From: Paludibacteraceae bacterium
GTDB taxonomy: Bacteria; Bacteroidota; Bacteroidia; Bacteroidales; Paludibacteraceae
Direction: 5' to 3'
Assembly: GCA_017450605.1 (NCBI GenBank)
Contig: JAFSTG010000100.1
Span: 1-45,209 of the forward strand
Length of the DNA: 45,209 bases
A program made the position numbers and the translations under genes. Each line of letters starts with the position of its first letter. Position 1 is the first letter of the stretch. Positions 2 to 39,372 of the stretch are shown here, piece after piece. Under the pieces are notes generated by a model, which had not been told where the DNA came from, did not search any database, and was given only the letters and a program-made list of their open reading frames with translations.

Positions 2-49
2 CCTCAACCTCAACCACAGCCTCAACCTCAGCCTCAACCTCAACCTCAA
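2..49 (+). repeat. CCTCAA/CCTCAG hexanucleotide tandem repeat (Pro-Gln codons)
   Basis: Eight consecutive six-base units are present, mostly CCTCAA with one CCTCAG and one CCACAG. They are read in frame as eight Pro-Gln pairs of the membrane protein that runs to 571. The array reaches the left edge, so the true unit number is unknown. Hexamer arrays can change length by slippage without shifting the frame. Confidence 0.9.
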
Positions 50-571
50 CCCGAAACACAATCGGCTCCGGAGAAATCGTCCGAAAGAATAGTTGTTGAT
101 ACCGGCTCATATACCAAAGATAACATTGTAAAGAAAGAGCGGAATGTAATATTGACAGCCTTATTGTGGTTGCTACTCGCTATTAGCGGTGCATTGGCTA
201 TTTTTTGCTTTACTAACAGCGATTTGAGCTTATTTATTTTTGCTGACAATGCACACCAGCAACTATATTTCTATACCGTTAATCAATACTCTGATTATTA
301 TCCTATGGCACTTATAGCTATAGGGGCAATGTGGACATTCAACGTCATCGCAATAGCGATGCTGTTAAAATGGAAAAAAGCCGGATATTGGATTGTGGTA
401 GCGAGTTCTGTCGTTCAAGTTATTATATTATGGTATTTATCAACTCTCGGAGGTGAAAACACACCTGAGTTGTATATGTCAATTGTGATTGTTGTTTTAT
501 TACCATTGTTGCTGCGTGGCATGCTTGCCATCAAAAAGAACGGCATTAGTTGTTGGAGCCAGTTAGATTAG
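2..571 (+). CDS. Membrane protein with N-terminal Pro-Gln tail (5' end outside the window)
   Basis: The reading frame is open from the left edge and ends at TAG 569-571; 189 residues are visible. A (PQ)8 stretch is followed by a polar linker and about four hydrophobic segments, at roughly visible residues 50-70, 95-120, 125-145 and 157-175. No ATG lies between the edge and the first membrane segment, and the TTG at 152 would cut off the tail, so the gene almost certainly starts upstream. The family is not recognised. Proline-rich tails before membrane bundles are common in secretion and envelope proteins. It sits 76 bp before the FHA protein on the same strand and is probably part of the same operon, where it could be a membrane component of the predicted secretion system; that is inference. 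Confidence 0.75.
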   Translation, partial: PQPQPQPQPQPQPQPQPETQSAPEKSSERIVVDTGSYTKDNIVKKERNVILTALLWLLLAISGALAIFCFTNSDLSLFIFADNAHQQLYFYTVNQYSDYYPMALIAIGAMWTFNVIAIAMLLKWKKAGYWIVVASSVVQVIILWYLSTLGGENTPELYMSIVIVVLLPLLLRGMLAIKKNGISCWSQLD

Positions 572-647: not shown

Positions 648-1850
648 ATGGATTCTACTATTAAGAAAACAGTGTCAGGCTCGTTAGGAGCGGGTGTTAA
701 TTTCTTATTCGGCAATTCGAGTTCCTATTATATACTCGAGCATAAAGTCTCGTCGCGATATCATCAGCAAGGCGAGTCGCAAAAAATTATTGTTGACAAC
801 ATTCAAATAGGTCGTGCTGAAGATTGCGAGGTGCGTTTCGACGAAAGTTTCCGCACTGTCAGTCGCCATCATGCAGGTATTGTACGCGATGGCAATCAGT
901 GGAAACTCATTCACCTCTCAGAGAAGAACAGCACGCTTCTCAATGGGGTGAAAGTGCAAGACGAGTGGTACTTGCAAAATGGCGACGAGATTCAACTCTC
1001 TATCAATGGTCCGAAATTAGGATTTATAATTCCATCTCCAGCAACCACCAAGACCTTAGGACTTACAGCTCGCATGAATTTATTTCGGGAACAAGCACTC
1101 AAACCATATCGCACTGCCATAGTTATATTCTCTGTTTTACTCTTACTCATTATTGGAGGTGCCGTAGCCTACGGAGTGGTGATGAATGATAAGAACCAAC
1201 GGCAGGAACAAGAAATTGAAGAAGAAATAGCAAAAAGAGATTCAATAATCAGTAATCTACAGAAAGAGACCGAACAACAGCGTTATTTGATTGAAGAACA
1301 AATTGATGCTTTAAAAGAGCAAAAGAAACAATTAGATAAAGAAAGAGCAAATACTAAATCCGCTGAAGATAAGGCGAAAGATGCGATACAGAAATCAGAA
1401 GACATTCAAAAACAAATAGACGCTCTCGTAGATAAGCTTAACGAATTGCAAGCGGAACCACAACCGAAAGACGCACAAAATAATAGTAAAATTAAAATTG
1501 GAGACGTTATAAAAGTAGATGGAAAGGATTATATTGTTGCCAATGTAAATGACTCAGGCGAGCACGGATTCGCAATTTACGATGCAGGTGTCGGCGCATT
1601 ACCCTACTCTTATATAGAAAATAAAAAAATCCCTTCTATTGATGAATTTATGATTGTTTTTAAGAACAAGTCATCTCTAAAGTATTTTAGTGGTAGCTAT
1701 TGGAGTTCTAAAGTAAGAACCATGAGTTATTTTAATGGTTCAAATTTTGAAACGATGTATGTAGCTCAAACTGTCAATTTAGAAAATGGTGATATTTCCG
1801 AAGCAAATATTACCCGCAATTACGGTATCTTACTAATTCACAGGTTCTAA
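648..1850 (+). CDS. Membrane FHA protein with coiled coil and Lcl/DUF1566-like C-terminus
   Basis: The 400-residue protein has three parts. Residues about 45-115 form an FHA phosphothreonine-binding domain, with the IGRAEDCEV turn, S-R-H-H and the N-S-T-x-L-N-G loop. A single membrane helix lies at about 156-178 and a charged coiled coil at about 180-275. The final 120 residues contain Y-W-S-S and a closing aromatic strand, like Lcl/DUF1566-type C-type-lectin-fold domains; this last match is weak. With FHA inside the cell, the coiled coil and C-terminal domain would lie in the periplasm. The protein could bind phosphorylated partners of the downstream kinase and pass the signal across the inner membrane. 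ATG 648 is the first start after a 76-bp gap. The FHA and membrane calls are firm; the role is inferred from context. Confidence 0.85.
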   Translation: MDSTIKKTVSGSLGAGVNFLFGNSSSYYILEHKVSSRYHQQGESQKIIVDNIQIGRAEDCEVRFDESFRTVSRHHAGIVRDGNQWKLIHLSEKNSTLLNGVKVQDEWYLQNGDEIQLSINGPKLGFIIPSPATTKTLGLTARMNLFREQALKPYRTAIVIFSVLLLLIIGGAVAYGVVMNDKNQRQEQEIEEEIAKRDSIISNLQKETEQQRYLIEEQIDALKEQKKQLDKERANTKSAEDKAKDAIQKSEDIQKQIDALVDKLNELQAEPQPKDAQNNSKIKIGDVIKVDGKDYIVANVNDSGEHGFAIYDAGVGALPYSYIENKKIPSIDEFMIVFKNKSSLKYFSGSYWSSKVRTMSYFNGSNFETMYVAQTVNLENGDISEANITRNYGILLIHRF

Positions 1851-1892
1851 CCAAATTATTATAGTACATTTATATTTATATTTATATTTTAT

Positions 1893-3296
1893 ATGTCAGT
1901 AAAGGTTCGTATTTCTGCCCGCTGTGAGGCAGCAGGCAGACCCAACAACGAAGATAATTACTTAGTTTGTGAAGACCTTGCAGCAAACAAATGGGGGTTC
2001 CAAAGCGACAAGGTATTAGAATTAGGTGCCAAAGGCACTCTGCTATTAGTTTGCGATGGCATGGGCGGAATGAATGCAGGCGAGGTAGCAAGTGCCATTG
2101 CTACTGAAACTATAAAGCAATGGTTTGCCACAGATCGGCTTACCGATGCAGTGTTAGCAGACGATATTAGTCGCTGCGACTACATACGCCGAGCAATACA
2201 AGCCGCTGACACAGCAATTAAGACCGAAGGTCAGCGTGATGCCGCTAAACGCGGTATGGGGAGTACCGCCGTTATGGTATGGCTGTTAGATTGCAAAGCC
2301 TATGTAGGTTGGTGTGGCGATAGCCGTGCATATAAGTTCAATTCACAGATAGGTCTTGAGCAAATGAGTCACGACCATTCTTACGTTCAAGAATTGGTTG
2401 ACAAAGGTCAGTTATCGGCAGAGTTAGCATTCGATCATCCAAATAACAATATCATAACCCGTAGTCTTGGCGACCCTCGTGGCTTAGCGCAACCCGACAC
2501 TGCCGTGTTCGCTCTCAGCGAAAACGATATCGTGCTGCTTTGCAGCGATGGTCTCTGCGGTGTATTGCGCGACAACGAGATAGAAAGCATCATTCGGCTC
2601 AACACCACTTCAATGGAAATGCTTCGCGATACACTTTGGGAAGTATCGCGCCCCAAATGGCACGATAATGTAACTATCGTTTTAGCACAAGTTGTAGGAG
2701 GACAGCAATCGGTTTTTAATAATCCGCAAGGTTATGTTGAGGCATCGACAAATAACAAAGATGAACAACAGGCAAATAACAAAGATGACAAACAACAGGC
2801 AAATAACCCGCAGCAAAATGCAAATGCGCAAACTACAAAAAGGAACTCCTTAACTCTTGCAGGAATAAGAATCCCACCCGTGATATTCTATACTATATGT
2901 TTATTGCTCATCGCTATTCTCGCTGCGGCTGCTGTGCTTCTTCTGAAAGATTGGAATCGAAATGACAATCACGGCAACAAAAAACCGAACACGGAGGTAA
3001 CTCAAGAACATCAGAATGATGCCGCCCAACCTCAATCTTCCACAATAGATATAGATAAACAAATAAAAAATACAGAATTCAGCGATTCAACCTCATTAGA
3101 GCAACATATAGATTCTATTTTTGACTGGATTGATCAAAATAATGATAATTTAGCATCTAAAAAAGAGGGTATTAATAATCACCTCACTGATATAGGGAAT
3201 AAATATGGTGATAACGTTGGGGGTGCGGATGAATATTTTATAAAAGACGACTTAAAACATAAATTTGATTCACTTGTAAATCGTGTAAAGAAATGA
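1893..3296 (+). CDS. PP2C-family Ser/Thr protein phosphatase, membrane-anchored
   Basis: The 467-residue protein carries an N-terminal PP2C (PPM) domain of about 265 residues. Its metal-binding and catalytic motifs are intact: R-x-N-N-E-D-N near residue 20, V-C-D-G-M-G-G near 55, G-S-T-A-V, G-D-S-R-A-Y, C-S-D-G near 217 and H-D-N-V-T near 260. A Gln/Asn-rich linker, one membrane helix at about 329-352 and an acidic 110-residue tail follow. The phosphatase domain should face the cytoplasm and reverse phosphorylation by the kinase at 4017-5630. PP2C/kinase/FHA trios regulate type VI and some other secretion systems. The stop overlaps the next start by 4 bp (ATGA), so the two are translationally coupled. 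Confidence 0.95.
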   Translation: MSVKVRISARCEAAGRPNNEDNYLVCEDLAANKWGFQSDKVLELGAKGTLLLVCDGMGGMNAGEVASAIATETIKQWFATDRLTDAVLADDISRCDYIRRAIQAADTAIKTEGQRDAAKRGMGSTAVMVWLLDCKAYVGWCGDSRAYKFNSQIGLEQMSHDHSYVQELVDKGQLSAELAFDHPNNNIITRSLGDPRGLAQPDTAVFALSENDIVLLCSDGLCGVLRDNEIESIIRLNTTSMEMLRDTLWEVSRPKWHDNVTIVLAQVVGGQQSVFNNPQGYVEASTNNKDEQQANNKDDKQQANNPQQNANAQTTKRNSLTLAGIRIPPVIFYTICLLLIAILAAAAVLLLKDWNRNDNHGNKKPNTEVTQEHQNDAAQPQSSTIDIDKQIKNTEFSDSTSLEQHIDSIFDWIDQNNDNLASKKEGINNHLTDIGNKYGDNVGGADEYFIKDDLKHKFDSLVNRVKK

Positions 3297-3988
3297 AAAA
3301 AATATTAGTTATATTAATAAGCATAGCACTGCCATTGACTGTATTTGCCGATTTTAGGCAAGAATATCAAAAAGGGCAGGAGAATTATAAGAAGGGTAAA
3401 TACGAGAAGGCTCGTGATAATTTCATGAATGTACTTCAAGAGAAAGGCGTATATGCCAATGTGGTAGAATATTTACGGTTATGTAATGAGAAAATCTCTA
3501 ATAAATCTCAAAAGGAGATATCCAAACTCGAAATAAAAGTTTCTAATTTAGAGAGTACTCAGAAAATACATGAAAGAAAAATTATTTCTCTTCGCGATAG
3601 TATTAAGAACCTAAAAGACACTATAACTGAAGGTTTTTTAATACGCAATAATTTATTAAGGAATATTGAATCTCTCAACAAACAATTGACCGACACCATA
3701 AATGCATTAAAAAGCGCAAAAAGCAAAATTGATGAATTGAATGTAAAAATCTCACAAATGAAAGAAGCATTAGAAGAACAACCAAAAAATAATAAACAGG
3801 GCAAGAAAGGTAAAAAAACAGATGAAGAAAAATCAGAAAAGGATAGTAACACCAATAAAAACAGTAATTACGATTCTGAGCAAAAAGATGAGCAGGTGCA
3901 ACCGACAGATTCAACCCAAATCAACTCTCAAGGCAATCCAACTATCGATGGCGGAGGCACAAGTGTCGACACCCGCAGATCCAAATAA
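3293..3988 (+). CDS. Periplasmic TPR-like / coiled-coil protein
   Basis: The 231-residue protein begins with a cleavable signal peptide (MKK, hydrophobic core, ending V-F-A-D near residue 20). A short helical repeat resembling one TPR unit (YQKGQENYKKGKYEKARDNF) follows, then a long coiled coil at about 60-160, then a Lys/Glu/Asn/Gly-rich disordered tail. No enzyme motif is visible. The same TPR-type start, with K/Q-Y-x-x-A, is seen in the BACON protein at 5627-7213, so the two may be related periplasmic scaffolds. It overlaps the phosphatase gene by 4 bp and lies 28 bp before the kinase gene. Confidence 0.8.
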   Translation: MKKILVILISIALPLTVFADFRQEYQKGQENYKKGKYEKARDNFMNVLQEKGVYANVVEYLRLCNEKISNKSQKEISKLEIKVSNLESTQKIHERKIISLRDSIKNLKDTITEGFLIRNNLLRNIESLNKQLTDTINALKSAKSKIDELNVKISQMKEALEEQPKNNKQGKKGKKTDEEKSEKDSNTNKNSNYDSEQKDEQVQPTDSTQINSQGNPTIDGGGTSVDTRRSK

Positions 3989-4016
3989 CTAACACTTACA
4001 AACATTCATTTTAATC

Positions 4017-5630
4017 ATGCAACTTAGCGAAAACACATTATTTGCTGATAGATATCAGTTTGAACGGCTACTCGGAAGAGGAGGTTTTTCGGAAGTGTGG
4101 CTTGCCACCGACCAACTCACGCAACTGCAAGTAGCAGTTAAAGTATATGCACCCGGACAAGGTATGGACCAAGACGGACTCAAAGAGTTCAGCAAAGAAC
4201 TATCGAATGTATATAACCTTAACCATACCAACCTCATCAAGCCACAGCATGTCGATGCGTGGCAAAATATGCCATATCTCATAATGTCGTTTTGCAAGCA
4301 GGGCTCGTGCACCTCGAAAACCGGCAAAATGGAAGAAGAGCAGATATGGAGACTCATTCACGATGTCGCTGCCGGACTTGCCTACCTACATGCACAAGAT
4401 ATCATTCATCAGGACATCAAACCCGACAACATTCTCATCGACAACGATGGACATTATGTGATTACCGATTTCGGAATCAGCGTTCAAACTCGTTCAACTC
4501 TTCGTAAGAGTATGAATATCGCCAATGCAAGCGGCACCACCGCATATATGGCACCCGAGCGCTTTTCGGCAGAACCTACACCTGTAAAGGCAAGTGATAT
4601 ATGGTCGCTCGGAGCTACCGTATATGAACTGCTTACCGGCAAGGCACCATTCGGAGAAATTGGCGGAGGATTGCAGAAAAGCGGTGCCGACCTACCAACA
4701 ATTCACACACAGATATCTCCGGCTCTTAGACAAACCATTGCACTAATGCTCGCTCCCGAACCTTGGGATAGACCAACTGCCGCGGTGCTTACCGATTGGG
4801 CAGATAATCCTGCTGCTATCAAGTTTGCTATTAAGAATGTGAAAATGATAGGCTCGATGGCAAGTAATTCGTTCCTTAAAATATCACCGCAAACATTCGA
4901 TACCGACCCTACAGGCGGAGAACAAAAGGTATATATTAAGACTGAAGATAAGTGGACTTTTACCACCGACGATAAATGGATAAATGTAGAGCGAATAGGA
5001 GATACCGCACTCTGCATTAAGTATGGTGCCAACGAGACAGGAGAAAACCGCTCGGCTTCTATCAATGTTATATCAGGTGCTCGTGCAGCAGTAATTAGTC
5101 TCGACCAAAAGAGTCTGCCCAAACGCAACAAGAAACCACTTTATATTTCGCTTATCGTAGCAGGAGTGCTTGCATTTGTTATTGGAGTGGCACTATATAA
5201 TCATTACGGCATACAAGTGCCCAAACGAGTAGAGAGGCTTACAGCACTCTACATTGAAAAAGCCACAGGTTGCAAGCGCTTTATTGCCTCAATGAGTTAC
5301 AAAGACGAAGCAATGAAACTGCAGGGGCCGGTTCGAGCAATAGCAGAGGTAGAGGACTTGGAGAAAGCACCACTATTTGCTAAAACTAAACTTGCAGCAC
5401 AATCGCAACCGTTGCAAGCAGCATATTTAGACTCATGTCGTTCTGTCAGCCAAAAACTATTGCAAGAAATAAATATTGAGAAAAGCTATTTGCAACCCGG
5501 TGAAGAGACAGAACTGCTTAGGAACTTTATAACCAAAAGAAACAAAGTAGAGGATGTCATTTCTCAGTTCGATTCAGGCAAAACTGCTAAACAAATAAGC
5601 GAAGAAATAAAACAACAACTCGCCAAATGA
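4017..5630 (+). CDS. Ser/Thr protein kinase with BACON-like domain and one membrane helix
   Basis: The 537-residue protein carries a Hanks-type kinase domain at about 10-265. It has the glycine loop G-R-G-G-F-S-E-V, the ATP lysine K42, helix-C Glu 61, catalytic loop H131-Q-D-I-K-P-D-N, D151-F-G and the A-P-E motif. All catalytic residues are present, but the usual H-R-D arginine is Gln, making it a non-RD kinase. At about 285-367 there is a beta-rich domain with the BACON pattern: G-G-x-x-x-V-x-I-x-T, W-x-F, W-I-N-V and a final V-I-S-L-D-Q. A membrane helix at about 374-394 and a 140-residue helical tail follow. It probably phosphorylates FHA partners in the same operon. The stop overlaps the next start by 4 bp. 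Confidence 0.93.
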   Translation: MQLSENTLFADRYQFERLLGRGGFSEVWLATDQLTQLQVAVKVYAPGQGMDQDGLKEFSKELSNVYNLNHTNLIKPQHVDAWQNMPYLIMSFCKQGSCTSKTGKMEEEQIWRLIHDVAAGLAYLHAQDIIHQDIKPDNILIDNDGHYVITDFGISVQTRSTLRKSMNIANASGTTAYMAPERFSAEPTPVKASDIWSLGATVYELLTGKAPFGEIGGGLQKSGADLPTIHTQISPALRQTIALMLAPEPWDRPTAAVLTDWADNPAAIKFAIKNVKMIGSMASNSFLKISPQTFDTDPTGGEQKVYIKTEDKWTFTTDDKWINVERIGDTALCIKYGANETGENRSASINVISGARAAVISLDQKSLPKRNKKPLYISLIVAGVLAFVIGVALYNHYGIQVPKRVERLTALYIEKATGCKRFIASMSYKDEAMKLQGPVRAIAEVEDLEKAPLFAKTKLAAQSQPLQAAYLDSCRSVSQKLLQEINIEKSYLQPGEETELLRNFITKRNKVEDVISQFDSGKTAKQISEEIKQQLAK

Positions 5631-7213
5631 AACTAAAATCGATAATATCAGTCCTAACTTTTGCTGTCATAATGCCTGTCGATGCCGACGAGTGCGACAA
5701 CATCCGCCTTAAGGCACGACAGCTTTTTGAGGCTAAACAATACGAGCAAGCAAAAGCCGAATATGAGTCTTATTTGCGTAGCAGCGACTGTCCCGAGTCA
5801 GGCGAAGTAAAAAAGAATCTTGAGGAGTGCAAGCGGCAAATAGCAGCGAAAACTAAACAATCTGCAGAAAAGACCACTACACAATCTGCGTCTTTCAAAC
5901 TCAGCCGCAATACCTATACTGTAGAAGCAACGGTAGATAACACTTTGCAAATCTCATTCATTTCGGCACCTGCCGAATGGCATGTAGAGAGTTTGCCATC
6001 GTGGATTGAAGAAGCAATCGGCTCGAAAGACAGATACACAATAGAATTTTATATTGATGATAACTCCGGTGCCCAAGACCGCACAGGACAAATAGTATTC
6101 AAGGCTGATGACTCTTCAGCGAAAGCAGTCTGCACAATAAAGCAAGAAGGAATATTCATACCTTTCAGCGTTAGCAACGACTATATTGAGTTTACCGACA
6201 AAAAAGATGCTCGCACATTACATATTACATCCGATTACGCATGGCGAGTAGTTTCTTACCCTGATTGGCTGAGTGTTATGAGCAAGAATAACGACCTCTC
6301 TGTTCTATGTTCTCAAAACAACACAGAGTCGGCAAGAGAAGACGAGATAATAATAGAAAACTCGTTTGGCAAACGACTTACCATCGTTGTTGCACAAGAT
6401 AAAAGCAACGAGTTCATATATGCTACTCCTGATGCTGTTAACGATGATAATGGGGCTGGAGGCACAGCCACCGTTACAATTAAAGCAAGCAGAAACTGGC
6501 AGATAGATAGCACCCCCAATTGGTGTACTACTCAGCAGGATGGCAACAAACTTAAGATTACGATGCAGCGCAATAAAACCGGCTATCGCAGAGAAGGAGA
6601 TGTAAAAATTTCCATTTTCGTTCCTGACGGAACTCAGACGATGTCGTGGCCGCCAATAGAAGGAGGCGATTATAAAACTGCTATCATACACCTCAGGCAA
6701 GCACCAAGTCAGCAGTATGTAGAACTTTCAGTTTCGTCAATTAACGAACCAACTGGTAAGGGTGGCACTTCTACTATCAGTGTTGACACAAGCGAACCTA
6801 CATGGGAGATTGTTGATATGCCTGCTTGGTGCGAACTAACTGCTAAAACTTACAACTCATTCACCATTCATCTGCTCAATAATAATGGTGGTAATGCACG
6901 AGAAGCGCAACTTCGAGTAAAAGCCGGCACAGTTGTCAGAACACTTACGCTTAAACAGGCTGCACGCGAAAATTTTGTTACGGTTAGTGCCAACCTCGTC
7001 AACTCTTCAAAAAACGGAGGAAATATTACCATACGTGTGGAGAGTAGCGGCACATGGCGAGTTGTCAACCTACCCGACTGGTGCCATATAACGAGTCAAG
7101 ACAACAACTCGTTCACACTGAAAGTAGATTATAACGATGGGGCAGCACGCTCTGCCACAATAGCTGTATCTTCAGCAGGCACCAGAGAACAAATAAAAAT
7201 CAATCAAGATTAG
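5627..7213 (+). CDS. Secreted TPR protein with five tandem BACON-like domains
   Basis: The 528-residue protein has a signal peptide (about 1-20) and a TPR-like helical pair (about 24-75). Five beta-sandwich repeats of 80-100 residues follow, at roughly 90-175, 178-261, 262-363, 365-447 and 449-528. Each carries the BACON signature, with a G-G-x-x-x-I/V-x-I start, W-x-V/I, P-x-W and a closing strand ending near Q. BACON domains are known mostly as spacers or glycan- and mucin-binding modules of Bacteroidota surface proteins. Here there is no catalytic domain and the gene is embedded in a kinase/FHA/ATPase operon. That points to a periplasmic scaffold that may pair with the BACON-like domain of the kinase. 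There is no lipobox and no T9SS tail. Confidence 0.85.
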   Translation: MKLKSIISVLTFAVIMPVDADECDNIRLKARQLFEAKQYEQAKAEYESYLRSSDCPESGEVKKNLEECKRQIAAKTKQSAEKTTTQSASFKLSRNTYTVEATVDNTLQISFISAPAEWHVESLPSWIEEAIGSKDRYTIEFYIDDNSGAQDRTGQIVFKADDSSAKAVCTIKQEGIFIPFSVSNDYIEFTDKKDARTLHITSDYAWRVVSYPDWLSVMSKNNDLSVLCSQNNTESAREDEIIIENSFGKRLTIVVAQDKSNEFIYATPDAVNDDNGAGGTATVTIKASRNWQIDSTPNWCTTQQDGNKLKITMQRNKTGYRREGDVKISIFVPDGTQTMSWPPIEGGDYKTAIIHLRQAPSQQYVELSVSSINEPTGKGGTSTISVDTSEPTWEIVDMPAWCELTAKTYNSFTIHLLNNNGGNAREAQLRVKAGTVVRTLTLKQAARENFVTVSANLVNSSKNGGNITIRVESSGTWRVVNLPDWCHITSQDNNSFTLKVDYNDGAARSATIAVSSAGTREQIKINQD

Positions 7214-7219
7214 GCAAAT

Positions 7220-7771
7220 ATGAAAAAATTAACAGTTGGCACAAGTAGTGACTGCGACATAGTTGTTAAGGGTCAGTATGTCTCGCGGCATCATTGCATT
7301 CTCACAATAGATCGAAATGTTATCTCAATAGAAGACAACAATAGCACTAACGGCACATACGTTGATGGACATAAAATACACCATCGAACTACTCTTAAGA
7401 GAAATTCGAAAGTTATGTTAGGTCCAAAATATAAATTTGACTTTTCTGAATATGTATTCCAAACCTTACTTTATACAGGTGAAGACGAAACTTTACTTGC
7501 TTTTAACGAATCTATAGACTATAATACACTTAGAACCAAGCGGGGTGGTAGTGCTCGTCCGGTGGTAGATATACCTTCGAAAATAGAGATCAACGAAAAC
7601 CATGCCGAAATATATAAAAATGGAGAAAATGGAGCAGATTGGAAAGTGCCTCTCAAACGTAACATGGGTTCGAGAATAGGCGATAGCGTCGGACAAACAT
7701 TAGGATGCATCATATCTGCCATTATAATAGTAGTTGTATTAGCTATAGTATTTGCCATTTCACATGCTTAG
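7220..7771 (+). CDS. Small FHA protein with C-terminal membrane anchor
   Basis: The 183-residue protein has an N-terminal FHA domain at about 1-75, with V-G-T-S-S-D-C-D-I, V-S-R-H-H and N-S-T-N-G-T-Y-V, so the phosphopeptide-binding residues are intact. A linker of about 80 residues follows. A C-terminal hydrophobic helix at about 159-181 then gives a tail-anchored topology with FHA in the cytoplasm. It begins 6 bp after the BACON gene and ends 20 bp before the FHA-ATPase, whose own FHA domain is similar in size and spacing. It is a likely docking subunit that tethers phosphorylated partners at the membrane next to the soluble-looking ATPase. Confidence 0.92.
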   Translation: MKKLTVGTSSDCDIVVKGQYVSRHHCILTIDRNVISIEDNNSTNGTYVDGHKIHHRTTLKRNSKVMLGPKYKFDFSEYVFQTLLYTGEDETLLAFNESIDYNTLRTKRGGSARPVVDIPSKIEINENHAEIYKNGENGADWKVPLKRNMGSRIGDSVGQTLGCIISAIIIVVVLAIVFAISHA

Positions 7772-7791
7772 TTATTAAATATCATTATCTT

Positions 7792-10700
7792 ATGAAAGAG
7801 ATTACAATAGGTAGGAATCAGAATTGCACTATCATGCTTGAAGATGAGCACGTTAGTCGAAGACATTGTCGTTGTTTTGAAGACAATGGCGAGTACTTTA
7901 TTGAAGACACCAAATCTCTCAATGGAGTAAAGGTTGACGAGGAATATATTGCAGTTAATATTCCAACACCTTTTACAGCAGAAAGCAAAATAAAAATCGG
8001 TAACAAAATTTTCACAGGCAAGGAGATTATAGATATTATTAAACAGCCCAAAGAATCGACCATTGACAAGTGCAATAAGATAGAAAAACAGTATTTGGGC
8101 ATCATCGAAAGGTACAATAACAATCTCAACCTAATTAAAAATTCTCTTAAAACAGACTATCTACCCTATAGTATTTCATTTAATTCGAAAGTAGATGAGA
8201 TATCCTTCTATATCGAAGAATACTCAACAAAGATGCACGAGGCGATAACTATGCTCAAACTTATCTCCCAATCGTCACGCTCAGATTCAATAACTTTTCG
8301 TGAAGATATGGATAAGTTAGCACAGTTATGCCTACAAGCAGGTGCAGAGAAGAAAACATGTTCCGAAATAAAAGAAAGAGTTTTCGATGAGTTCCACCTA
8401 TTACAACAAAACATTCGACAAGAAGTTGTTTCTGCCTTTGGGCACTTTTCTGACTATTATGATAAAAAGGTTGCTCCTGATTACGAAACATGTAAGCCCC
8501 AATCTCAACTATGGGATTCAATAAATAATACACACTCTACAGCCTTTCCGTATGTGCTATATGGCTACCAAGACTTATCGTTACCAATCTTTGAAGATAA
8601 TGTGCAGTTACGTTATTGGCAATTTTTGCCGTTTGTAAGTAAGAATAATCTCATAATACGTTACCGACAAAACACTTCGAAGAAAGCAGATGACATTGTG
8701 AACAACTTAGCGGGAAGATTACTTGCGTCAAGTCGGAGCCAAAATGTAGAAATATACATGTTCGACATAAAGAACCTTAATGGCACAAGTAATTATCTGA
8801 AGATGCTCAATCGAGATATCTATACCATTGGGGTACGTACTGAAGAGGTAAGAGCACATTTGTCGTTTTTAGATAGAGATGTTGAAAATACTGTGCAAAA
8901 CTTGTTACAAGGACCATATTCATCCATACATGAAATCAATGCTAAAAACGACAAGCAATGGCCAATACGTGTAGTAGTGTTTAGAGACTTTCCCTACGGC
9001 ATAACGCAAGATGTTGTTTATCTTTTAAATAGAATTTTAATAAATGGAATACGAGCCGGTGTTCAATTTATCTTTATGCTTAATACCGACTTAATTGAAA
9101 GTAACGAAGATTGTTCAAAAATTGAAAGATTATTACATCTAAACGACCCGTCATTTCTGCAAGCCACAGAGATAGATCTAACTAAGCCAACAGCCTATTT
9201 AAAAACGACTCAGAATTATGTTACACTTTCGGATAATATCCTATACAAAATAATAGAGAAGGTTAAAAACAGCATGATAGTTAAAGAGGACGAGATACTT
9301 CTCCTTACCGACTATATGTTACCAAGAGAGCAATGGTGGAATAGAAATAGTTCTAATAGTGCTGATATCCCATTCGGATTAGGCAGAAACAAAAAAATCA
9401 AAGAGATAAACTTCACCCAAGAAAGCGGACAAAACGCAGCGGTTGTAATTGGTATTCCAGGTTCCGGCAAATCGGTATTTTTGCACTCTCTAATTGCTAA
9501 TGCTGCCATCAACTACTCTCCTCGTGAACTTCAACTATACTTGTTAGATTTTTCGGGTGTTGAATTCGATGTTTATGCTCGCCACCACCTCCCGCATGCC
9601 CGTATCATAGCACCTGAAGCCGAACGAGAGTTTGGACTGAGCGTATTGGAAGAAGTATATCAAGAAGGTAATCGTAGAATGGTTAAATGCCGCGAGAACA
9701 ATGTAAATAACATTGTCGGATTACGGCAAAAAACAGAGGAAGAAGTCCCTCGTCTATTGGTAATAATCGATGAATTCCAGAAGATATTTGAAATAAACGA
9801 TTACATAAGCAAACGTGCCGAAAAGATTATTGAAGTGATAATAAGAGAATATAGAAAATTCGGTATAAATCTTATTCTTGCTTCACAAGAACTACCCGGA
9901 GGACTCAAATATAATCTTATTGCTAACAGAGTAGTTTTCAAAAGTACACCGAAGGATTTCGCCACATTATTGCCCAAATGTAATGATTCCAAACTTTGGA
10001 CAGGTGATTGTATCTACAATAATGCTTCAGGAGCGGACGATGCAAATCAACGTACGCGTTCATTCTATATCAACGCTTTTGGTGATTTAGAAAAATTATT
10101 AGACGATGTTCTTGAATTTGCCGACGAACATCAATCTCTTACATCATCAGTATCAACAAGAGTATTTAGAGCAAAGGAAGTTCCTTACATTAAGATGCAA
10201 GAGTCATTTATTGAAAATCATCCGGTTATCATTAGCCCGGACAACAATCCGTCAAAGGTAAAGATATATATAGGAGAAAATATTGCAATTCAACAGACAG
10301 ACGTTGCCTTATCTCTTACTAAGGGTACAAACCAAAACATACTTATTATCGGAGGTTCAGAATTCTTGGATATACCTCAAAATCTAACTATATGTATGTC
10401 GTTTACACAAGCACTTGCATATAATACGGAATCGTATTTTGTATCTTTCTATGACTTCCTACCCAAAGATTCTGTCTCTAAACTCGCATTTGAACAAATA
10501 TACCCGGTTGTTGATTATTCTGCTAAAGTATCTGAAATATGTCGCACTGAAAGCGAAGTATTGGAGAGCCTCAACAATTGGAAGGAATTTATCGAAGAGC
10601 GCCGAACAAGTGGTGAAGATTTTCCCAATATATTTCTCTATTTCCTTGCCTTTGAAAAAGGAAATATGTTTAATCGCACAAGCTCTATTAAATTTTCAGA

Positions 10701-10998
10701 ATGTTCAAAACTATTACAATACATTCTTGAAAATGGTCCACTGGTCGGAGTATTTACAATTTTACAGGTTGACAACTACGATTCATTCACTCGCCAAATA
10801 GAAAACATGAATCCGTTCAATCACCGTATATTGTTCCAGATGTCGGCAACACACTCAAATAGAGTTATATCCGACGAATCGGCAAGTCGGCTTAGTCCTG
10901 AAAGCAATGATGCTCTCAAGCATAGGGCAATATATTACAATAAAAATAACAATACAATAACAAAATTCAAACCTTATATGTTATGGCAGAAGCAATAA
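7792..10998 (+). CDS. FHA-FtsK/SpoIIIE-type ATPase (EssC/EccC-like)
   Basis: The start is ATG 7792, where the FHA domain begins at once (M-K-E-I-T-I-G-R), giving 1068 residues. The frame is open for 29 codons upstream, but they overlap the previous gene. Residues 1-80 form an FHA domain. Residues about 280-500 form a degenerate FtsK-like module without a P-loop. Residues about 530-760 form an intact module with Walker A G-I-P-G-S-G-K-S at 554-561, Walker B ending in D660-E661 and a sensor-like S-Q-E. Residues about 845-1068 form a third module with a ruined P-loop (I-I-G-G-S-E). FHA followed by several FtsK modules is the layout of EssC of Firmicutes type VII secretion, but no membrane helix is visible here. 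The small FHA membrane protein could supply the anchor. The gene overlaps the next by 16 bp. Confidence 0.88.
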   Translation: MKEITIGRNQNCTIMLEDEHVSRRHCRCFEDNGEYFIEDTKSLNGVKVDEEYIAVNIPTPFTAESKIKIGNKIFTGKEIIDIIKQPKESTIDKCNKIEKQYLGIIERYNNNLNLIKNSLKTDYLPYSISFNSKVDEISFYIEEYSTKMHEAITMLKLISQSSRSDSITFREDMDKLAQLCLQAGAEKKTCSEIKERVFDEFHLLQQNIRQEVVSAFGHFSDYYDKKVAPDYETCKPQSQLWDSINNTHSTAFPYVLYGYQDLSLPIFEDNVQLRYWQFLPFVSKNNLIIRYRQNTSKKADDIVNNLAGRLLASSRSQNVEIYMFDIKNLNGTSNYLKMLNRDIYTIGVRTEEVRAHLSFLDRDVENTVQNLLQGPYSSIHEINAKNDKQWPIRVVVFRDFPYGITQDVVYLLNRILINGIRAGVQFIFMLNTDLIESNEDCSKIERLLHLNDPSFLQATEIDLTKPTAYLKTTQNYVTLSDNILYKIIEKVKNSMIVKEDEILLLTDYMLPREQWWNRNSSNSADIPFGLGRNKKIKEINFTQESGQNAAVVIGIPGSGKSVFLHSLIANAAINYSPRELQLYLLDFSGVEFDVYARHHLPHARIIAPEAEREFGLSVLEEVYQEGNRRMVKCRENNVNNIVGLRQKTEEEVPRLLVIIDEFQKIFEINDYISKRAEKIIEVIIREYRKFGINLILASQELPGGLKYNLIANRVVFKSTPKDFATLLPKCNDSKLWTGDCIYNNASGADDANQRTRSFYINAFGDLEKLLDDVLEFADEHQSLTSSVSTRVFRAKEVPYIKMQESFIENHPVIISPDNNPSKVKIYIGENIAIQQTDVALSLTKGTNQNILIIGGSEFLDIPQNLTICMSFTQALAYNTESYFVSFYDFLPKDSVSKLAFEQIYPVVDYSAKVSEICRTESEVLESLNNWKEFIEERRTSGEDFPNIFLYFLAFEKGNMFNRTSSIKFSECSKLLQYILENGPLVGVFTILQVDNYDSFTRQIENMNPFNHRILFQMSATHSNRVISDESASRLSPESNDALKHRAIYYNKNNNTITKFKPYMLWQKQ

Positions 10999-11276
10999 AC
11001 GACTTAGATGAGTTCATCAAATATAGAAAAACTCTTGAAACTGTTGTAGAGAATTTAGAGAAAAACCTTCGCAAGACAGAAGAGGCTATCGAAACTGTAA
11101 AAAACGAGGGGTGGGACGATCCAAAATTCAAGGAATTTGACAAAAAATTCGCAGAAGACAAGGATGAGTTACTCGAATTCTGCAAGGCAGTTAAGCGACT
11201 CAATGACGAAGACATGGAAGAACTTCAAAAAATATTGGAGGAATATTTTGGCGTACCTATGGGCAGACCATCATGA
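10983..11276 (+). CDS. WXG100-like small helical protein (WxD variant), copy 1
   Basis: The protein has 97 residues, the classical WXG100 size. It is predicted as two helices, about 5-40 and 47-90, joined by a turn holding E-G-W44-D-D46. In WXG100/ESX substrates the turn Trp lies near residue 43 and is followed by x-G; here D replaces the glycine. The turn continues as P-K-F-K-E-F, so the motif reads W-x-D-x-K-x-x-E-F, as in the proteins at 12022 and 12518. There is no signal peptide. The gene starts inside the ATPase gene (16-bp overlap) and ends with a 4-bp overlap with the next, implying coupled translation with the ATPase. It is a likely secreted substrate or chaperone. Confidence 0.8.
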   Translation: MAEAINDLDEFIKYRKTLETVVENLEKNLRKTEEAIETVKNEGWDDPKFKEFDKKFAEDKDELLEFCKAVKRLNDEDMEELQKILEEYFGVPMGRPS

Positions 11277-12013
11277 GCGACAATAAAATACATATTCTAA
11301 ACGATAATTCGTTAGTTGACCTTAATAATACACTGGAATATACGGCCGACTCATTGCTTAAAATAGAAGAAGCAGTTGATAAGTATATGACAGGTGTAAT
11401 CGACACACTCAATCAACAAATGGAGATTCTTCGTAAACGTCTTGCACAAGCACAAGAAAAATTGGCAGCAGCCGAAGCAGACTTAAGTTCGTGTGAGGCA
11501 TCTCAGACGTGGGACGAAGAAGATGAATGTTGGCATCCCTCATGCGACGCAGAAGCGGCTGCAGTAAGTGCAGCTGAGGAAGAAGTAAGAGAATGTCAGC
11601 AGAACGTAGATAAAGGGGAAGAAATATTAAGCAGGTGCCAAACTGAATACGATACTTATCACGAGCCGGTGTCTTTTCTTTATCCTCCGGGAGGACACTA
11701 TTTAATTGACTATGCTGCCCATAATTTTACTGATGCAGCCACACAAACAATGCGCCAACTCATCGAAGCGGTCGGCAGATATAGGCAGTTCCATTTTAAT
11801 GGTAGTTCCGGGCAAGAGACTGCAAACACCGATAACAACCAACCTAATGCACAAGAAGATGAGCAGAAACGAAAAAACGCACTTGAAGAAATTAAGGGCA
11901 ATCAGAGTTATGTTAACCCTGATGCCAATCGCGTGATGGTATGTCCCAAATGCGGGCGACCATTATCAATGTGTTCTTGCTCAGCGAATAGAGATATGGT
12001 AATTATCAAATAA
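11273..12013 (+). CDS. Coiled-coil hairpin protein with C-terminal zinc-ribbon-like motif
   Basis: The 246-residue protein has no signal peptide. Two long helices (about 25-82 and 95-135, rich in A, E and Q) are separated by a loop containing W-D-E-E-D-E-C-W-H-P-S-C. That arrangement suggests a helical hairpin with a metal-binding or disulfide tip. A Tyr/His/Phe-rich segment and a Gln/Asn-rich linker follow. The tail carries C-P-K-C-x6-C-x-C, a compact zinc-ribbon-like motif. The family is not recognised. It lies between two WxD proteins and overlaps the first by 4 bp. It may be a longer LXG-like substrate, an adaptor or a chaperone of the predicted secretion system; the sequence alone does not decide. 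Confidence 0.75.
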   Translation: MSDNKIHILNDNSLVDLNNTLEYTADSLLKIEEAVDKYMTGVIDTLNQQMEILRKRLAQAQEKLAAAEADLSSCEASQTWDEEDECWHPSCDAEAAAVSAAEEEVRECQQNVDKGEEILSRCQTEYDTYHEPVSFLYPPGGHYLIDYAAHNFTDAATQTMRQLIEAVGRYRQFHFNGSSGQETANTDNNQPNAQEDEQKRKNALEEIKGNQSYVNPDANRVMVCPKCGRPLSMCSCSANRDMVIIK

Positions 12014-12021
12014 AACGTATT

Positions 12022-12504
12022 ATGCATAATATACCGGATTTTGCACTTCAACTAACAGAAGTCAGAAATCAGTTGCAAGTTCAAACTGATATCACTGCCC
12101 AAAATTGGCAGGATAGAAAAAAGACCGAGTTCTACGAAACATTTGTAGAGCTAATGTTTGAATATATCGACAATTATATAAATGGTGGCAAGCAAATGCG
12201 GGGCATGGGAGTAAACGACCTTATGGAGTTGTTTGCAAGTTCTATGGATGAAATGGAAAAACTAACCGGTGTGCCTGCCGATGTGCAGTTTGAGTTGGCT
12301 GCACTTGGCATGCACGACGGTAATGTAAACGACGCATACGGCAATCAAATAGCAGTGGAAGACGATCCGCACGTAATTAACAGAGGAGGAGTTGTTCACG
12401 ACTCACAAGGCAATAGAGACTATTGGGACTCGTGGCGTAACGGACCACGGCCGGGCGAAATGAAACCCAAAGAAATAAACGACTTATTAGAAAATAAACA
12501 ATAA
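12022..12504 (+). CDS. WXG100-like helical protein (WxD variant), copy 2
   Basis: The 160-residue protein has a first helix at about 6-27 and a turn N-W29-Q-D31-R-K-K-T-E-F. A second helix (about 35-75) follows. A C-terminal half of about 75 residues is rich in Asp, Asn and Gly and contains W-D-S-W-R-N-G-P-R-P-G. The turn fits the W-x-D-x-K-x-x-E-F pattern of the neighbouring copies. The extra C-terminal part is not seen in plain WXG100 proteins and could be a recognition tail. It starts 8 bp after the zinc-ribbon protein and ends 13 bp before copy 3. No enzyme motif was seen. Confidence 0.75.
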   Translation: MHNIPDFALQLTEVRNQLQVQTDITAQNWQDRKKTEFYETFVELMFEYIDNYINGGKQMRGMGVNDLMELFASSMDEMEKLTGVPADVQFELAALGMHDGNVNDAYGNQIAVEDDPHVINRGGVVHDSQGNRDYWDSWRNGPRPGEMKPKEINDLLENKQ

Positions 12505-12517
12505 AACAGATTATATT

Positions 12518-13081
12518 ATGAGTGATAGTAATATGCATGTTCGCTCTGAGAGTTTAAAAAATCTTCAGGACGATTTAATTTCCCTTTCGGGCAACCTAAC
12601 TGAAATATATAATGCTATGAATGCTGACTTATCTCACATGGCGCAATATTGGGAAGATGATAAGTTTGATGAGTTCAAACAGGTACATAATCCACAAATA
12701 GAAGGAGTTGAACAAAAATCGAAAGATTATAAAGCATGGGCAAACGGACCACTTGAGGAAGAATATCAAGTAGTATTAAAATACGAAGGAAAAACATTTG
12801 GCTCAAGTGGCGGCAGCGGTGTATCCGGCGCAGGTACATCAACAAAAACAGGTGCAGCAACCGAAAGTAGTGGACAACAACAGGAAACAAAGAAAAATAA
12901 ATTCCGAGCTGCAATTGATGCAATTGATAAGATGAATCAAAAAATGGCAGGAGCATCCGATAACAAGCCTATTCCTCCTAAACCTGATTCAGGATTCGAA
13001 ACACCCGAGAATTACCGCAAGCAGCAACAACTAACTCCACAACAAATAGCTGATATTCAGAGGATGCGTGGTGGGAGATAA
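12518..13081 (+). CDS. WXG100-like helical protein (WxD variant), copy 3, with disordered tail
   Basis: The 187-residue protein has an N-terminal helical pair (about 10-42 and 50-85) around the turn Y-W45-E-D47-D-K-F-D-E-F. The Trp position matches WXG100 proteins almost exactly, but Asp replaces Gly. From about residue 92 the chain is Gly/Ser/Thr-rich, then basic, then Pro/Gln-rich, ending P-Q-Q-I-A-D-I-Q-R-M-R-G-G-R. Many ESX-type substrates likewise pair a helical hairpin with a disordered carboxyl tail. This is the last gene of the operon and is followed by a strong hairpin. Confidence 0.8.
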   Translation: MSDSNMHVRSESLKNLQDDLISLSGNLTEIYNAMNADLSHMAQYWEDDKFDEFKQVHNPQIEGVEQKSKDYKAWANGPLEEEYQVVLKYEGKTFGSSGGSGVSGAGTSTKTGAATESSGQQQETKKNKFRAAIDAIDKMNQKMAGASDNKPIPPKPDSGFETPENYRKQQQLTPQQIADIQRMRGGR

Positions 13082-13149
13082 GATGCGACTACGACTATGT
13101 GATGCAACTTAATCCTATTTTAGGCTGAGAAAAGTAAACATGCCCCAAA

Positions 13150-13191
13150 AACAGCAAGCGAGGCACCTACAAGGGTGTCTCGCTTGCTGTT
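13150..13191. terminator. Bidirectional intrinsic terminator
   Basis: There are 19-base arms at 13150-13168 and 13173-13191 (AACAGCAAGCGAG / CTCGCTTGCTGTT core) with two imperfect pairs and a 4-base loop. A-rich sequence lies on the left and T-rich sequence on the right. It lies between the convergent + strand operon and secG, so it can stop transcription from both sides. Confidence 0.9.
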
Positions 13192-13225
13192 TTATGTGTA
13201 GTTTGTGGCAACAAACTCTGCAAGA

Positions 13226-14195: not shown

Positions 14196-15482
14196 TTATT
14201 GCAGGTCGAACTCTTTGATTTTACGATATAATGTGCGCTCGGATATTTGCAACTCGGCAGCGGCTGCCTTACGGTTGTAGTTATGCTTCTGTAGAGCCTT
14301 GGCTATTGTCTCACGCTCTATGTCACGCATTGTCGAAGGCGACGACTCATGCTGCTTCTCCTCAGCATTATTTTCTCCTGCATCGATATGCTGTGCCATT
14401 CTGCCCTCTTGTTCAGCTTGCAAGAACTCGTCTTCCACCTCTTCGGCTGTCTGATATTCGTCGTTGTCGAACTGGTGAGCAGAAGCTATCAGCGATGAGT
14501 TACCGCTTTTGCCTATGGTATGAACATCAGAGCCTAACGACTGACGAGCCAACGTATCGACTTGCGAGCGCAGTTCGTTCATGTCTTTTTTCAGTTCGAT
14601 GAGCATCTTATAGTAGAACAGTTCGCGCTCCGACATTATCTGTTCGTCTTGTCCTGTTTGACGAAGGATTGCAGGAGCACGACCCATTTCATGATGCGGA
14701 AGATATGGAGCAAGCACCTCGGCTGATATCTCACGCTGAGTCTCGACAACAGAAATCTGTTCGGCTATATTCTTCAGTTGACGAATATTCCCCGACCAAT
14801 AATAATTTTGCAATAGTGTTGTCGCCTCGGGCGTCAGTCTAACCACCGGCATACGATATTTCTCGGCACAGTCGGCAGCAAACTTACGGAACAACAACGG
14901 TATATCAGCTTTACGTTCGCGCAATGCAGGTATTTTTATCTCAATGGTATTGAGACGATAGTAGAGATCTTCGCGAAAACGACCTGCACTGATGGCTTCC
15001 TGGAAGTTGATATTCGTAGCAGCCACAACGCGCACATTCGTCTTTTGCACCTTCGACGAGCCAACCTTGATAAACTCGCCGGTTTCGAGCACACGCAGAA
15101 GACGGACCTGCGTAGGCAGAGGCAGTTCGCCCACTTCGTCGAGAAACAGAGTACCACCATCGGCTATCTCGAAATATCCTTTGCGGTCCGCCTTTGCGTC
15201 GGTGAATGCACCCTTCTCGTGTCCGAACAGCTCCGAGTCGATAGTGCCTTCCGGTATAGCACCGCAGTTGATAGCAAAATACGGTCCGTGCTTACGCGAA
15301 CTGTAGTTGTGGATAATCTGCGGGAAATACTCCTTACCCACACCGCTCTCGCCTATAATAAGCACGGTGAGGTCGGTTGGAGCCACTTGCACGGCAATCT
15401 CGATATCGCGATTTAGTTGCGGCGAGTTGCCAATGATACCCATGCGCTGTTTGATGCGTTGTATTTCGGTGTTATCGGTCAT
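14196..15482 (-). CDS. Sigma-54-dependent transcriptional activator without receiver domain
   Basis: The 428-residue protein carries an AAA+ domain from about residue 14 to 245. It has Walker A G-E-S-G-V-G-K-E, the sigma-54 contact loop G-A-F-T-D-A and Walker B G-T-L-F-L-D-E-V. A variable linker and a C-terminal Fis-type helix-turn-helix (N-R-K-A-A-A-A-E-L-Q-I-S-E-R-T-L-Y-R-K-I) follow. No receiver, GAF or PAS domain precedes the ATPase, so activity is not set by direct phosphorylation. The Walker A ends in K-E rather than K-T/S, which is common in this family. Its place between DUF3467 and LptE genes suggests an envelope-related regulon; that is inference. Confidence 0.93.
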   Translation of the reverse strand: MTDNTEIQRIKQRMGIIGNSPQLNRDIEIAVQVAPTDLTVLIIGESGVGKEYFPQIIHNYSSRKHGPYFAINCGAIPEGTIDSELFGHEKGAFTDAKADRKGYFEIADGGTLFLDEVGELPLPTQVRLLRVLETGEFIKVGSSKVQKTNVRVVAATNINFQEAISAGRFREDLYYRLNTIEIKIPALRERKADIPLLFRKFAADCAEKYRMPVVRLTPEATTLLQNYYWSGNIRQLKNIAEQISVVETQREISAEVLAPYLPHHEMGRAPAILRQTGQDEQIMSERELFYYKMLIELKKDMNELRSQVDTLARQSLGSDVHTIGKSGNSSLIASAHQFDNDEYQTAEEVEDEFLQAEQEGRMAQHIDAGENNAEEKQHESSPSTMRDIERETIAKALQKHNYNRKAAAAELQISERTLYRKIKEFDLQ

Positions 15483-35827: not shown

Positions 35828-35882
35828 ATTCGTGAATTTTCTAAAATTAAACATTTCTTTCATATTTGCGTTGTGTTACATT

Positions 35883-39191: not shown

Positions 39192-39301
39192 GGTCTTTTT
39201 GATTTGGTTAATAATAAGTTAATATAAAGTGTTATTGTGAATTGTGTTTTGTTTTTATATCCGTACACTCACAAAATCAGCAAAACGGATAAAATCAAAA
39301 G

Positions 39302-39332
39302 CAAAAATACATAAATTATTTTTTTTAGCAAA
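39302..39332 (-). promoter_or_regulatory. susC promoter
   Basis: On the minus strand TTTG (39329-39332), 19 bp, then TATTTTTG (39302-39309). Both boxes are perfect. The -33 box lies inside the palindrome at 39321-39350. Confidence 0.85.
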
Positions 39333-39350
39333 CGTTTATTTGCTAAAAAA
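39321..39350. promoter_or_regulatory. susC operator palindrome (contains AAACGTTT)
   Basis: Perfect 12-base arms TTTTTTAGCAAA and TTTGCTAAAAAA are separated by CGTTTA. The half-site core AAACGTTT (39330-39337) resembles LacI-family sites. It overlaps the -33 box of susC, where a repressor or activator would act. A second site of the same shape lies before the amylase gene. Confidence 0.6.
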
Positions 39351-39372
39351 TGCGTATTATGTTCAAAAACAT

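Follow-up and report, generated by a model that had tools for sequence, protein, structure and literature searches.

Type VII-like ATPases paired with WXG100 proteins have been noted before in bacteria with two membranes. We compare the locus described here with these pairs and with the type VII secretion systems (T7SSs) proper. The locus is an operon on a 45,209-nucleotide stretch of DNA from a Paludibacteraceae bacterium of the order Bacteroidales (assembly GCA_017450605.1, contig JAFSTG010000100.1), which we refer to, at its full length, as the window. The operon encodes an FHA-bearing ATPase of the FtsK/EssC kind, three small W-x-D proteins, a coiled-coil protein, a kinase, a PP2C phosphatase, two further FHA proteins and putative envelope proteins. 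We read it as a type VII-like system for protein export in a diderm bacterium, under the control of phosphorylation, and put the probability of this reading at about two in three; from the sequence we infer export, its direction and the phospho-switch.

The nearest precedent is a table footnote. In footnote 6 of Table 1, Zhang et al. (2012; PMC3482391) note solo WXG domains accompanied by a three-domain YueA-like ATPase with an active middle domain; the pairs are placed in several diderm lineages including Bacteroidetes and are termed mobile versions of the T7SS. As far as that footnote describes them, the window operon resembles these pairs in the single P-loop of its ATPase, which lies in the central domain, in its WXG100-type neighbours, in its sporadic spread and in having relatives on plasmids. 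It differs in its FHA, kinase, PP2C and BACON genes, and in the toxin-domain cargo of a Bacteroidales relative. The operon fits the mobile kind of Zhang et al. as a new variant. The earlier note on this DNA had proposed a related export system in a diderm cell that would be a new subtype; the kinship of the ATPase and the WXG100-type proteins bear out the first part, and the second has to be narrowed because the kind was already noted in 2012.

Subtypes with kinases, phosphatases and FHA proteins, T7SSc to T7SSj, have been described by Garrett et al. (2024; PMC11217815), all from Bacillota and Actinomycetota. In the parts of that paper that bear on the comparison, the window operon is closest above all to T7SSd, T7SSe and T7SSj, which combine a kinase, a PPM phosphatase and FHA proteins with WXG100 proteins beside candidate cargo, and an FHA-bearing ATPase is described for T7SSd, e, f, i and j. 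The layout of the window kinase, with a cytoplasmic kinase domain, one transmembrane (TM) segment and an end beyond the membrane, resembles that of EssB and TscD, and its BACON-repeat protein is comparable, by analogy, to TsdI, the large Ig-like envelope protein of T7SSd. In contrast, the T7SSc to T7SSj ATPases are given there as membrane-bound with four predicted NTPase domains, whereas a single P-loop and no TM segment were found in the window ATPase. Most of these subtypes also have a YukD-like protein, TsxB, which is absent in T7SSd. No YukD match was found in the genome of the window (about 84% complete), although a B. subtilis control was positive. Models of EccB, EccD, EssA and EsaA were likewise missing among the listed Pfam and NCBIfam matches of the 11 operon proteins, so that these components are as unrecognisable here as had been claimed.

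Of the features of a canonical T7SS, the operon has an EccC/EssC-type ATPase and, beside it, a WXG100-family protein, the latter by family profile and by relatives that score over the cut-off. Because the number of P-loops, the membrane anchor and the W-x-G motif differ, and because YukD was not found, we do not class it as a canonical T7SS.

Two other diderm or defence-linked settings are known. Work on Helicobacter pylori, including a pan-genome paper (PMC4978471, PMC3397514), describes HP0062/HP0066 as a WXG100 secretion system and also a TerY-P island that contains type VII components. Like the window, that system has a diderm host, a W-x-D hairpin (WRD in HP0062) and an FtsK-type ATPase; the HNH nuclease of its cluster and the kinase and PP2C of the TerY-P island are further points of likeness. 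In the passages concerned, neither an FHA-ATPase fusion nor BACON/TPR envelope genes are described, unlike in the window. The second is an extension of the Type III-A CoCoNuTs by an EssC-like ATPase and WXG100 proteins (PMC11090510). According to the section on that extension, its ATPase has three domains, of which only the central one is active, and no TM segment, and it comes with two WXG100 proteins and a coiled-coil nuclease fusion, all of which we count as likeness. That ATPase begins with a coiled coil where the window ATPase has an FHA domain, and it is tied to a restriction system that was not found in the window operon.

Among the PMC literature matches listed, which included no preprints, we found no account of an operon that unites FHA, kinase, PP2C and BACON genes, nor of cargo fused to toxins in Bacteroidales. 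No paper on a T7SS in Bacteroidota appeared among those matches by its title or the start of its abstract, a search that passages within broader papers may escape. The footnote of Zhang et al. is the only prior notice of such Bacteroidetes genes that we found.

The ATPase and the small W-x-D proteins

The window ATPase matched the EssC model at 1.3e-19 and the FtsK translocase model at 0.047. The EssC model also matches housekeeping FtsK, so its best hit alone is weak evidence and we did not rely on it. Instead, we compared a profile of seven family ATPases from the same order with known structures. It matched EccC5 (2.5e-47) and YukB (1.5e-41) better than FtsK (1.3e-29) or HerA (5e-9), and best of all 4nh0 (1.5e-52), a chain deposited as FtsK/SpoIIIE that we take to be EccC of T. 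curvata. A maximum-likelihood tree, built from 38 domains, placed 24 family rows on one side of a branch (93/94) and joined the nine FtsK rows in one starred clade (95/92); the ATPases of the window and of loci L075, L076 and L077 grouped together at 100/99. The tree took in 35 loci and omitted same-locus repeats, most FtsK rows, L027 and domain hits below 40 bits, and HerA and conjugation ATPases stood outside it. Two intended references did not serve: the tree put L103, from a Paenibacillus plasmid and chosen as an EssC, with FtsK (100/100), and L079, from Tetrasphaera and taken for an EccC, fell inside the family. The phylogenetic check proposed in the earlier note thus sets the family apart from the FtsK DNA translocases. 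Taken together, these comparisons support kinship of the ATPase with type VII EccC/EssC rather than with DNA translocases.

The same note had expected multiple FtsK modules. We found one canonical P-loop in the window ATPase (GIPGSGKS, central domain), compared with two in the EssC of L102, and the protein therefore does not have several active FtsK modules. Degenerate domains on either side of the central one were detected weakly. In a profile comparison with the L102 EssC, the central domain aligned with D1 (4.9e-27) and the next domain with D2; a weaker second alignment laid the central domain on D2. In a simple hydropathy scan, no stretch of 19 residues in the window ATPase was hydrophobic enough to pass the threshold, and the same scan found hydrophobic segments in the L102 EssC and in distant relatives such as L040 and L042. 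At L040 (2337-3251), a separate gene for 304 residues repeats the C-terminal quarter of the family ATPase (query residues 803-1064).

All three small proteins of the window carry W-x-D (WDD, WQD and WED), not W-x-G, and none of them reaches a Pfam or NCBIfam cut-off; the 187-aa protein scores 12.9 bits against a cut-off of 27.3, and the L076 orthologue of the 160-aa protein matches WXG100 below threshold at 0.092. Neighbours of related ATPases do pass the Pfam cut-offs, at L043 (27.9 bits against 27.3), at L044 (WXG100_2, 31.5 against 27) and near the ATPase of L099 from Caballeronia (30.8 against 27.3). A profile of 22 small proteins (alignment A6) matched HP0062 at 3.6e-10, EsxB at 5e-9 and EsxA at 3.9e-8, followed by a few unrelated helical proteins at 4e-4 and weaker, and its alignment to EsxB lays W-x-D on the W-x-G of EsxB. 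A6 rows were hand-picked after the sequences had been read, not blind, from genes near family ATPases, some genes away in L099 and L101. An earlier set of 14 neighbours (alignment A2) gave HP0062 at 6e-10 and EsxA at 8.5e-6; it included, beyond A6, the 160-aa protein of the window and one or two proteins each from L041 (W-x-G), L044, L032 and L043. The small proteins of L098, L100 and L104 stood outside both alignments. Five close relatives of the 97-aa type on their own matched SAG1039 at 5.5e-4 and EsxA at 2.9e-3.

W-x-D was present in 20 of the 22 A6 rows, the other two, from L042 and L043, having Y-x-G. A motif search of A2 found W-x-D in nine of 14, Y-x-G in two and W-x-G in one (L041), with no match in the stretch searched for two; in one of the two, the second protein of L044, a WDD lies closer to the start. 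W-x-D is therefore usual, not universal. With respect to the claim of WXG100-like small proteins, the family profile carries it through its matches to HP0062, EsxB and EsxA, and the window proteins depart from it in their motif and in their own sub-threshold scores. We conclude that the family profile supports assigning the W-x-D proteins to the WXG100 type. The small proteins also seem to have a short C-terminal tail in common.

Candidate cargo and conservation of the operon

The N-domain of the 246-aa protein is a coiled coil in which Cys and Glu residues are conserved. It is followed by a CPKCG...CSC end, and the homologous protein in L076 (40% identity) ends similarly. In L077, the same N-domain (30% over residues 1-164) runs into PF15644, papain-fold toxin 1, at 44.9 bits against a cut-off of 24.1. 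Directly after this fusion gene, before the next small-protein gene, lies an open reading frame (ORF) of 83 codons from a TTG (14995-15246), or 81 residues from the ATG at 15001. It had no Pfam match and no meaningful NCBIfam match, and its slot is empty in the window, where the gap is 8 nt; by position alone, it is a candidate immunity gene. Two more distant homologues end in other ways: the L040 protein is GNAT-like there (21.3 bits against a cut-off of 20.7 for that part alone, 20.1 as a whole protein), and that of L043 has a very weak ART-like match (0.024). The layout is thus one of a constant, presumably helical N-domain, C-terminal ends that vary among L077, L040 and L043, and small partner proteins encoded next door. 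Such a constant head with a variable tail is the layout of polymorphic toxins. The 246-aa protein, on which the earlier note had put no emphasis, is probably the key cargo.

A short KF-G-FN-G-like motif was seen by eye between constant heads and variable tails (L077 13575-16716, L076 15343-15990) and is perhaps a recombination joint. The 246-aa protein had no match among plasmids at 1e-3. Among 358 genomes of the family, its N-domain was clearly present in three (G000, G967 and G962), which are also the three best ATPase matches, and two others gave weak matches of about 5e-4. On a plasmid of a Helicobacter sp. (L101, 4140-8542), three genes lie near a family ATPase: one for a WXG100-like protein, which at 24 bits misses the cut-off of 27.3, one that is WHH/colicin-DNase-like, and an SMI1/KNR4 gene. 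The last two look like a toxin-immunity pair in a diderm.

We searched a contig collection, described as holding 84,980 species, with an alignment of two ATPase sequences. Seven loci were found, namely L075, L076, L077, L078 (on the same contig as L040), two actinobacterial loci and one match to the FHA part only. The ATPases of L075, L076 and L077, all from metagenome-assembled genomes (MAGs) of uncultured Bacteroidales, are close orthologues (residues 1-1062, 44-48% identity). The short contig L075, identical to that of G967, the best-matching genome and one of the window's genus, covers only the genes for the ATPase and the 97-aa protein and a portion of the 246-aa gene. In L076, BLAST matched 10 of the 11 window proteins in order (24-63% identity), the TPR protein being the exception. 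Order is also kept in L077, where FHA2 is missing from its slot and the TPR protein has no match. A similar ORF is seen by eye in the TPR slot of both loci, where BLAST gave no match. Across the two loci, identity per matched protein ran from 24 to 67%. It was highest for PP2C (63% in L076 and 67% in L077), followed by the kinase (54% and 49%) and FHA1 (46% and 53%), and was lower for FHA2 (36%, L076), the orthologues of the 97-aa protein (33-35%) and the BACON protein (24-25%); the 187-aa protein had 37-41% over about 80-105 residues. The C-terminal domain of FHA1 is also found near the ATPase locus of G962 (match in L091). The survey of gene order in Bacteroidales that had been suggested yielded two cases. 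The MAGs of L076 and L077 are closely related to each other in the tree; the conserved order is more than chance.

ATPase matches at or below 1e-12 occurred in 11 of 358 family genomes (the genome of the window included), in six of 393 from the order and in three of 355 from the phylum, one of these with internal stops. The operon is accessory and sporadic. A second lineage in the same genus has a family ATPase and small proteins that are mostly W-x-D, with no FHA seen by eye. Kinase-like genes lie 0.5-7 kb upstream in L095-L097, and Sel1-like genes were noticed by eye near some of these loci.

Operon layout and contig edge

The 11 genes lie on one strand, separated by gaps of at most 42 nt or by short overlaps (Table 1). 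Pfam and NCBIfam searches and the gene order agree with the FHA-FtsK ATPase, three small proteins, kinase, phosphatase and two further FHA proteins of the earlier note, as does the 16-nt overlap of the ATPase gene (stop at 10998) with the first small-protein gene (start at 10983). We count 11 proteins in this interval and not the twelve given there. For the ATPase we preferred the start at 7792 over the ATG at 7705 because its orthologues begin with the FHA domain.

Table 1. Features of the window operon and its edges, with the ATPase loci of the second lineage.
Feature	Position	Strand	Evidence or remark
Probable FHA-(PQ)n-4TM protein, 3' part only; reading frame open at the contig edge	2..571	+	four hydrophobic stretches; CCTCAA repeat
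FHA1: FHA, one TM (156-174), coiled coil, C-terminal domain	648..1850	+	PF00498 1.6e-15; TM scan
PP2C-type Ser/Thr phosphatase, one TM (330-348)	1893..3296	+	PF00481 2.4e-13; NF033484 6.7e-54 (under the cut-off)
Protein with signal-like hydrophobic start, weak TPR, coiled coil; probably periplasmic	3293..3988	+	TPR_2 0.059, sub-threshold
Ser/Thr kinase, BACON-like domain, one TM (375-393), C-terminal part beyond the membrane	4017..5630	+	PF00069 4.1e-47
BACON-repeat protein, probably exported	5627..7213	+	PF13004 1.1e-32, 5 stretches
FHA2: FHA and C-terminal TM (162-180)	7220..7771	+	PF00498 4.3e-20; TM scan
FHA-FtsK/EssC-like ATPase, single P-loop GIPGSGKS at residues 554-561	7792..10998	+	PF01580 2.8e-21; FHA 3.3e-12
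97-aa W-x-D (WDD) small protein, WXG100-like	10983..11276	+	overlap with ATPase gene; profile match
246-aa coiled-coil protein, candidate cargo; SSCEAS...PSC..E motif, CPKCG...CSC end	11273..12013	+	homology to L076, L077
160-aa W-x-D (WQD) small protein	12022..12504	+	36% to L076; no Pfam match of its own
187-aa W-x-D (WED) protein, long low-complexity tail	12518..13081	+	WXG100 0.14, sub-threshold
Inverted repeat, 15-nt perfect arms, A/T ends; likely shared terminator	13148..13193		between operon and convergent secG
Second-lineage loci	L093 7201-11170; L094 8387-12226; L095 8863-13041; L096 8635-13569; L097 6899-11833; L032 8775-13735		

The hydropathy scan picked out a TM or signal-like stretch in five of the 11 operon proteins; the signal peptide of the BACON-repeat protein was not flagged by the scan and was seen by eye only. 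In the kinase, the BACON-like domain (1e-4; 22.6 bits, below the cut-off of 25) is unusually placed: it precedes the only TM segment and would therefore be cytoplasmic. Judged by eye against their known motifs, both kinases (the second is described below), the phosphatase and four of five inspected FHA domains look intact, FHA2 having T in place of the usual R. By eye, the L076 BACON protein might end in a beta-barrel; Pfam finds nothing there and we do not claim it. A consensus scan near the inverted repeat returned only a short minus-strand stem at 13170-13154.

The window is the entire contig C65 and opens with a CCTCAA repeat that reads PQ in frame. Another contig of the same genome, C100 (L111), ends in the same CCTCAA/(PQ)n repeat, and the assembly therefore probably broke there. 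Near that end, C100 carries the likely upstream genes (L111 7305-9575): a zinc-ribbon/FHA-like gene with both domains below cut-off, a kinase-FHA gene that is over the Pfam cut-off and 63% identical to a gene of the orthologous L076 locus, and the FHA part of an FHA-(PQ)n gene (9232-9575; FHA 49.5 bits, cut-off 20.7). Genes of these three kinds are seen by eye at the corresponding place in L076, and those of the first two kinds in L077. The window operon thus probably continues on C100. The FHA-(PQ)n part there and window positions 2-571 would be one gene, and the complete operon would have 14 genes across C100 and C65, contigs that are not joined in the assembly. The four-TM end of this contig-edge protein (window 152-571) has a partner gene at L076 16918-17511, downstream of the L076 operon (29%, 2.6e-8). 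Elsewhere in the window, a SusD/SusC-like pair, an alpha-amylase-like protein and a repeat protein (34103-45061) resemble, by eye, a starch-use locus.

Possible functions of the operon

The EssB/TscD-like layout of the kinase, together with PP2C and the FHA proteins, suggests a phospho-switch that recruits an ATPase lacking a membrane anchor. The FHA domain of the ATPase, and those of its partners, would bind phosphothreonines made by the membrane kinase or kinases and so bring the ATPase to the inner membrane, and the PP2C phosphatase would reverse this. Once recruited, the ATPase would drive out the W-x-D hairpin proteins with the coiled-coil cargo. The TPR and BACON proteins, both probably exported, may form a scaffold or conduit in the periplasm or outer membrane, the BACON protein taking, by analogy, the part of the Ig-like TsdI in T7SSd. 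The conserved operon and the toxin-fused cargo point to regulated export of variable cargo; use as a weapon and the whole outer-membrane step are putative.

Several observations weigh against a type VII-like export system. Of 395 genomes from the phylum, 385 gave matches to the EssC model at 1e-18, and most of these are housekeeping FtsK to judge from their size. None of the matches in these 395 genomes was above the curated cut-off, and since those listed look like housekeeping FtsK, we dropped the model as a phylum-wide detector. In the tree, the 93/94 support of the family branch is not starred, the position of the family with respect to EssC/EccC has weak support (75/43), and among the references two long branches join each other. 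A profile of four proteins of the 187-aa type reached a WXG100 structure only at 0.16, behind an unrelated one at 0.13, and small proteins beside such ATPases include exceptions to W-x-D: Y-x-G in L042 and L043, W-x-G in L041 and neither in L032:12774. The cargo of the window itself, like that of L076, has no toxin domain found by Pfam. The LXG Pfam model matched neither the 246-aa protein nor its homologues in L040, L042, L043, L076 and L077, and the coiled-coil domain had no meaningful match in the PDB (best 0.025), so that the cargo is LXG-like in layout only. Finally, no outer-membrane pore was recognised among the operon proteins.

We also considered a bolder form of the export reading, in which the operon is a type VII subtype of the Bacteroidales' own that spans two membranes, with an anchorless ATPase, Thr kinases, PP2C and about five FHA proteins as its switch, a BACON/TPR path, and polymorphic toxins and other cargo delivered into neighbours. 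This form we hold only tentatively, at clearly less than even odds.

A different possibility is that nothing is exported and that the operon acts inside the cell in conflict or anti-phage signalling, as a TerY-P triad, MADS or CoCoNuT-like system might, with an EssC-like pump and a kinase/phosphatase sensing pair. In a PADLOC comparison covering eight of the 11 window proteins, the kinase was best against the mad6 (1.2e-62) and PD-T4-6 models, and the ATPase matched SspH (2.6e-14) and mad8 (2.2e-13) weakly. Moreover, published ATPase/WXG100 pairs adjoin TerY-P triads (as described in parts of PMC4978471 and PMC3397514) or CoCoNuTs (in part of PMC11090510), and the Caballeronia relative adjoins vWA, PP2C, kinase and CARF genes. 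However, the kinase matches sit in the kinase domain that is common to many such kinases, and none of the 11 proteins gave a match above cut-off to a vWA, nuclease or methylase family, hence no TerY vWA. The TM or signal-like stretches in the operon proteins also speak against a purely intracellular role, and the fusion of the cargo to a polymorphic-toxin domain suits delivery better. We therefore regard intracellular signalling as unlikely.

Somewhat less likely again is assembly at the inner membrane and periplasm, or surface display, with the ATPase pushing hairpin and coiled-coil proteins into the periplasm, TPR and BACON proteins building an envelope structure, and no toxin delivered. The lack of a Pfam-visible toxin domain in the window and L076 cargo would agree with this, as would the several partners that are membrane-bound or probably exported and the missing recognisable pore. 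The toxin-domain fusion of L077 with its candidate immunity ORF, and the toxin/immunity-like pair of the Helicobacter relative, argue instead for delivery.

A DNA-moving machine of the FtsK/SpoIIIE, HerA or conjugation type with accidental small neighbours would account for the FtsK_SpoIIIE Pfam match and the sporadic distribution, yet it is very improbable, because the tree (without conjugation ATPases) and the profiles set the ATPase apart from FtsK and because WXG100-type neighbours are found repeatedly in relatives, some of them on plasmids from other phyla. Type VI secretion systems likewise come under the control of kinase, PP2C and FHA proteins, and the weak TagH FHA matches and the set of kinase, phosphatase and FHA proteins would suit a regulatory module of one, but the VipB/TssC sheath was not found in the window's own genome (about 84% complete), and we consider this the least probable reading of all.

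Taken together, we favour phosphorylation-controlled, type VII-like export. Type VII-type export in outer-membrane bacteria becomes a testable question with a conserved operon that brings its own kinase, phosphatase and FHA proteins, since it names the motor, the candidate cargo, the control parts and the candidate envelope parts. If export is true, the operon would add a weapon or surface system to those of the Bacteroidales and would show a monoderm-style pump coping with a second membrane.

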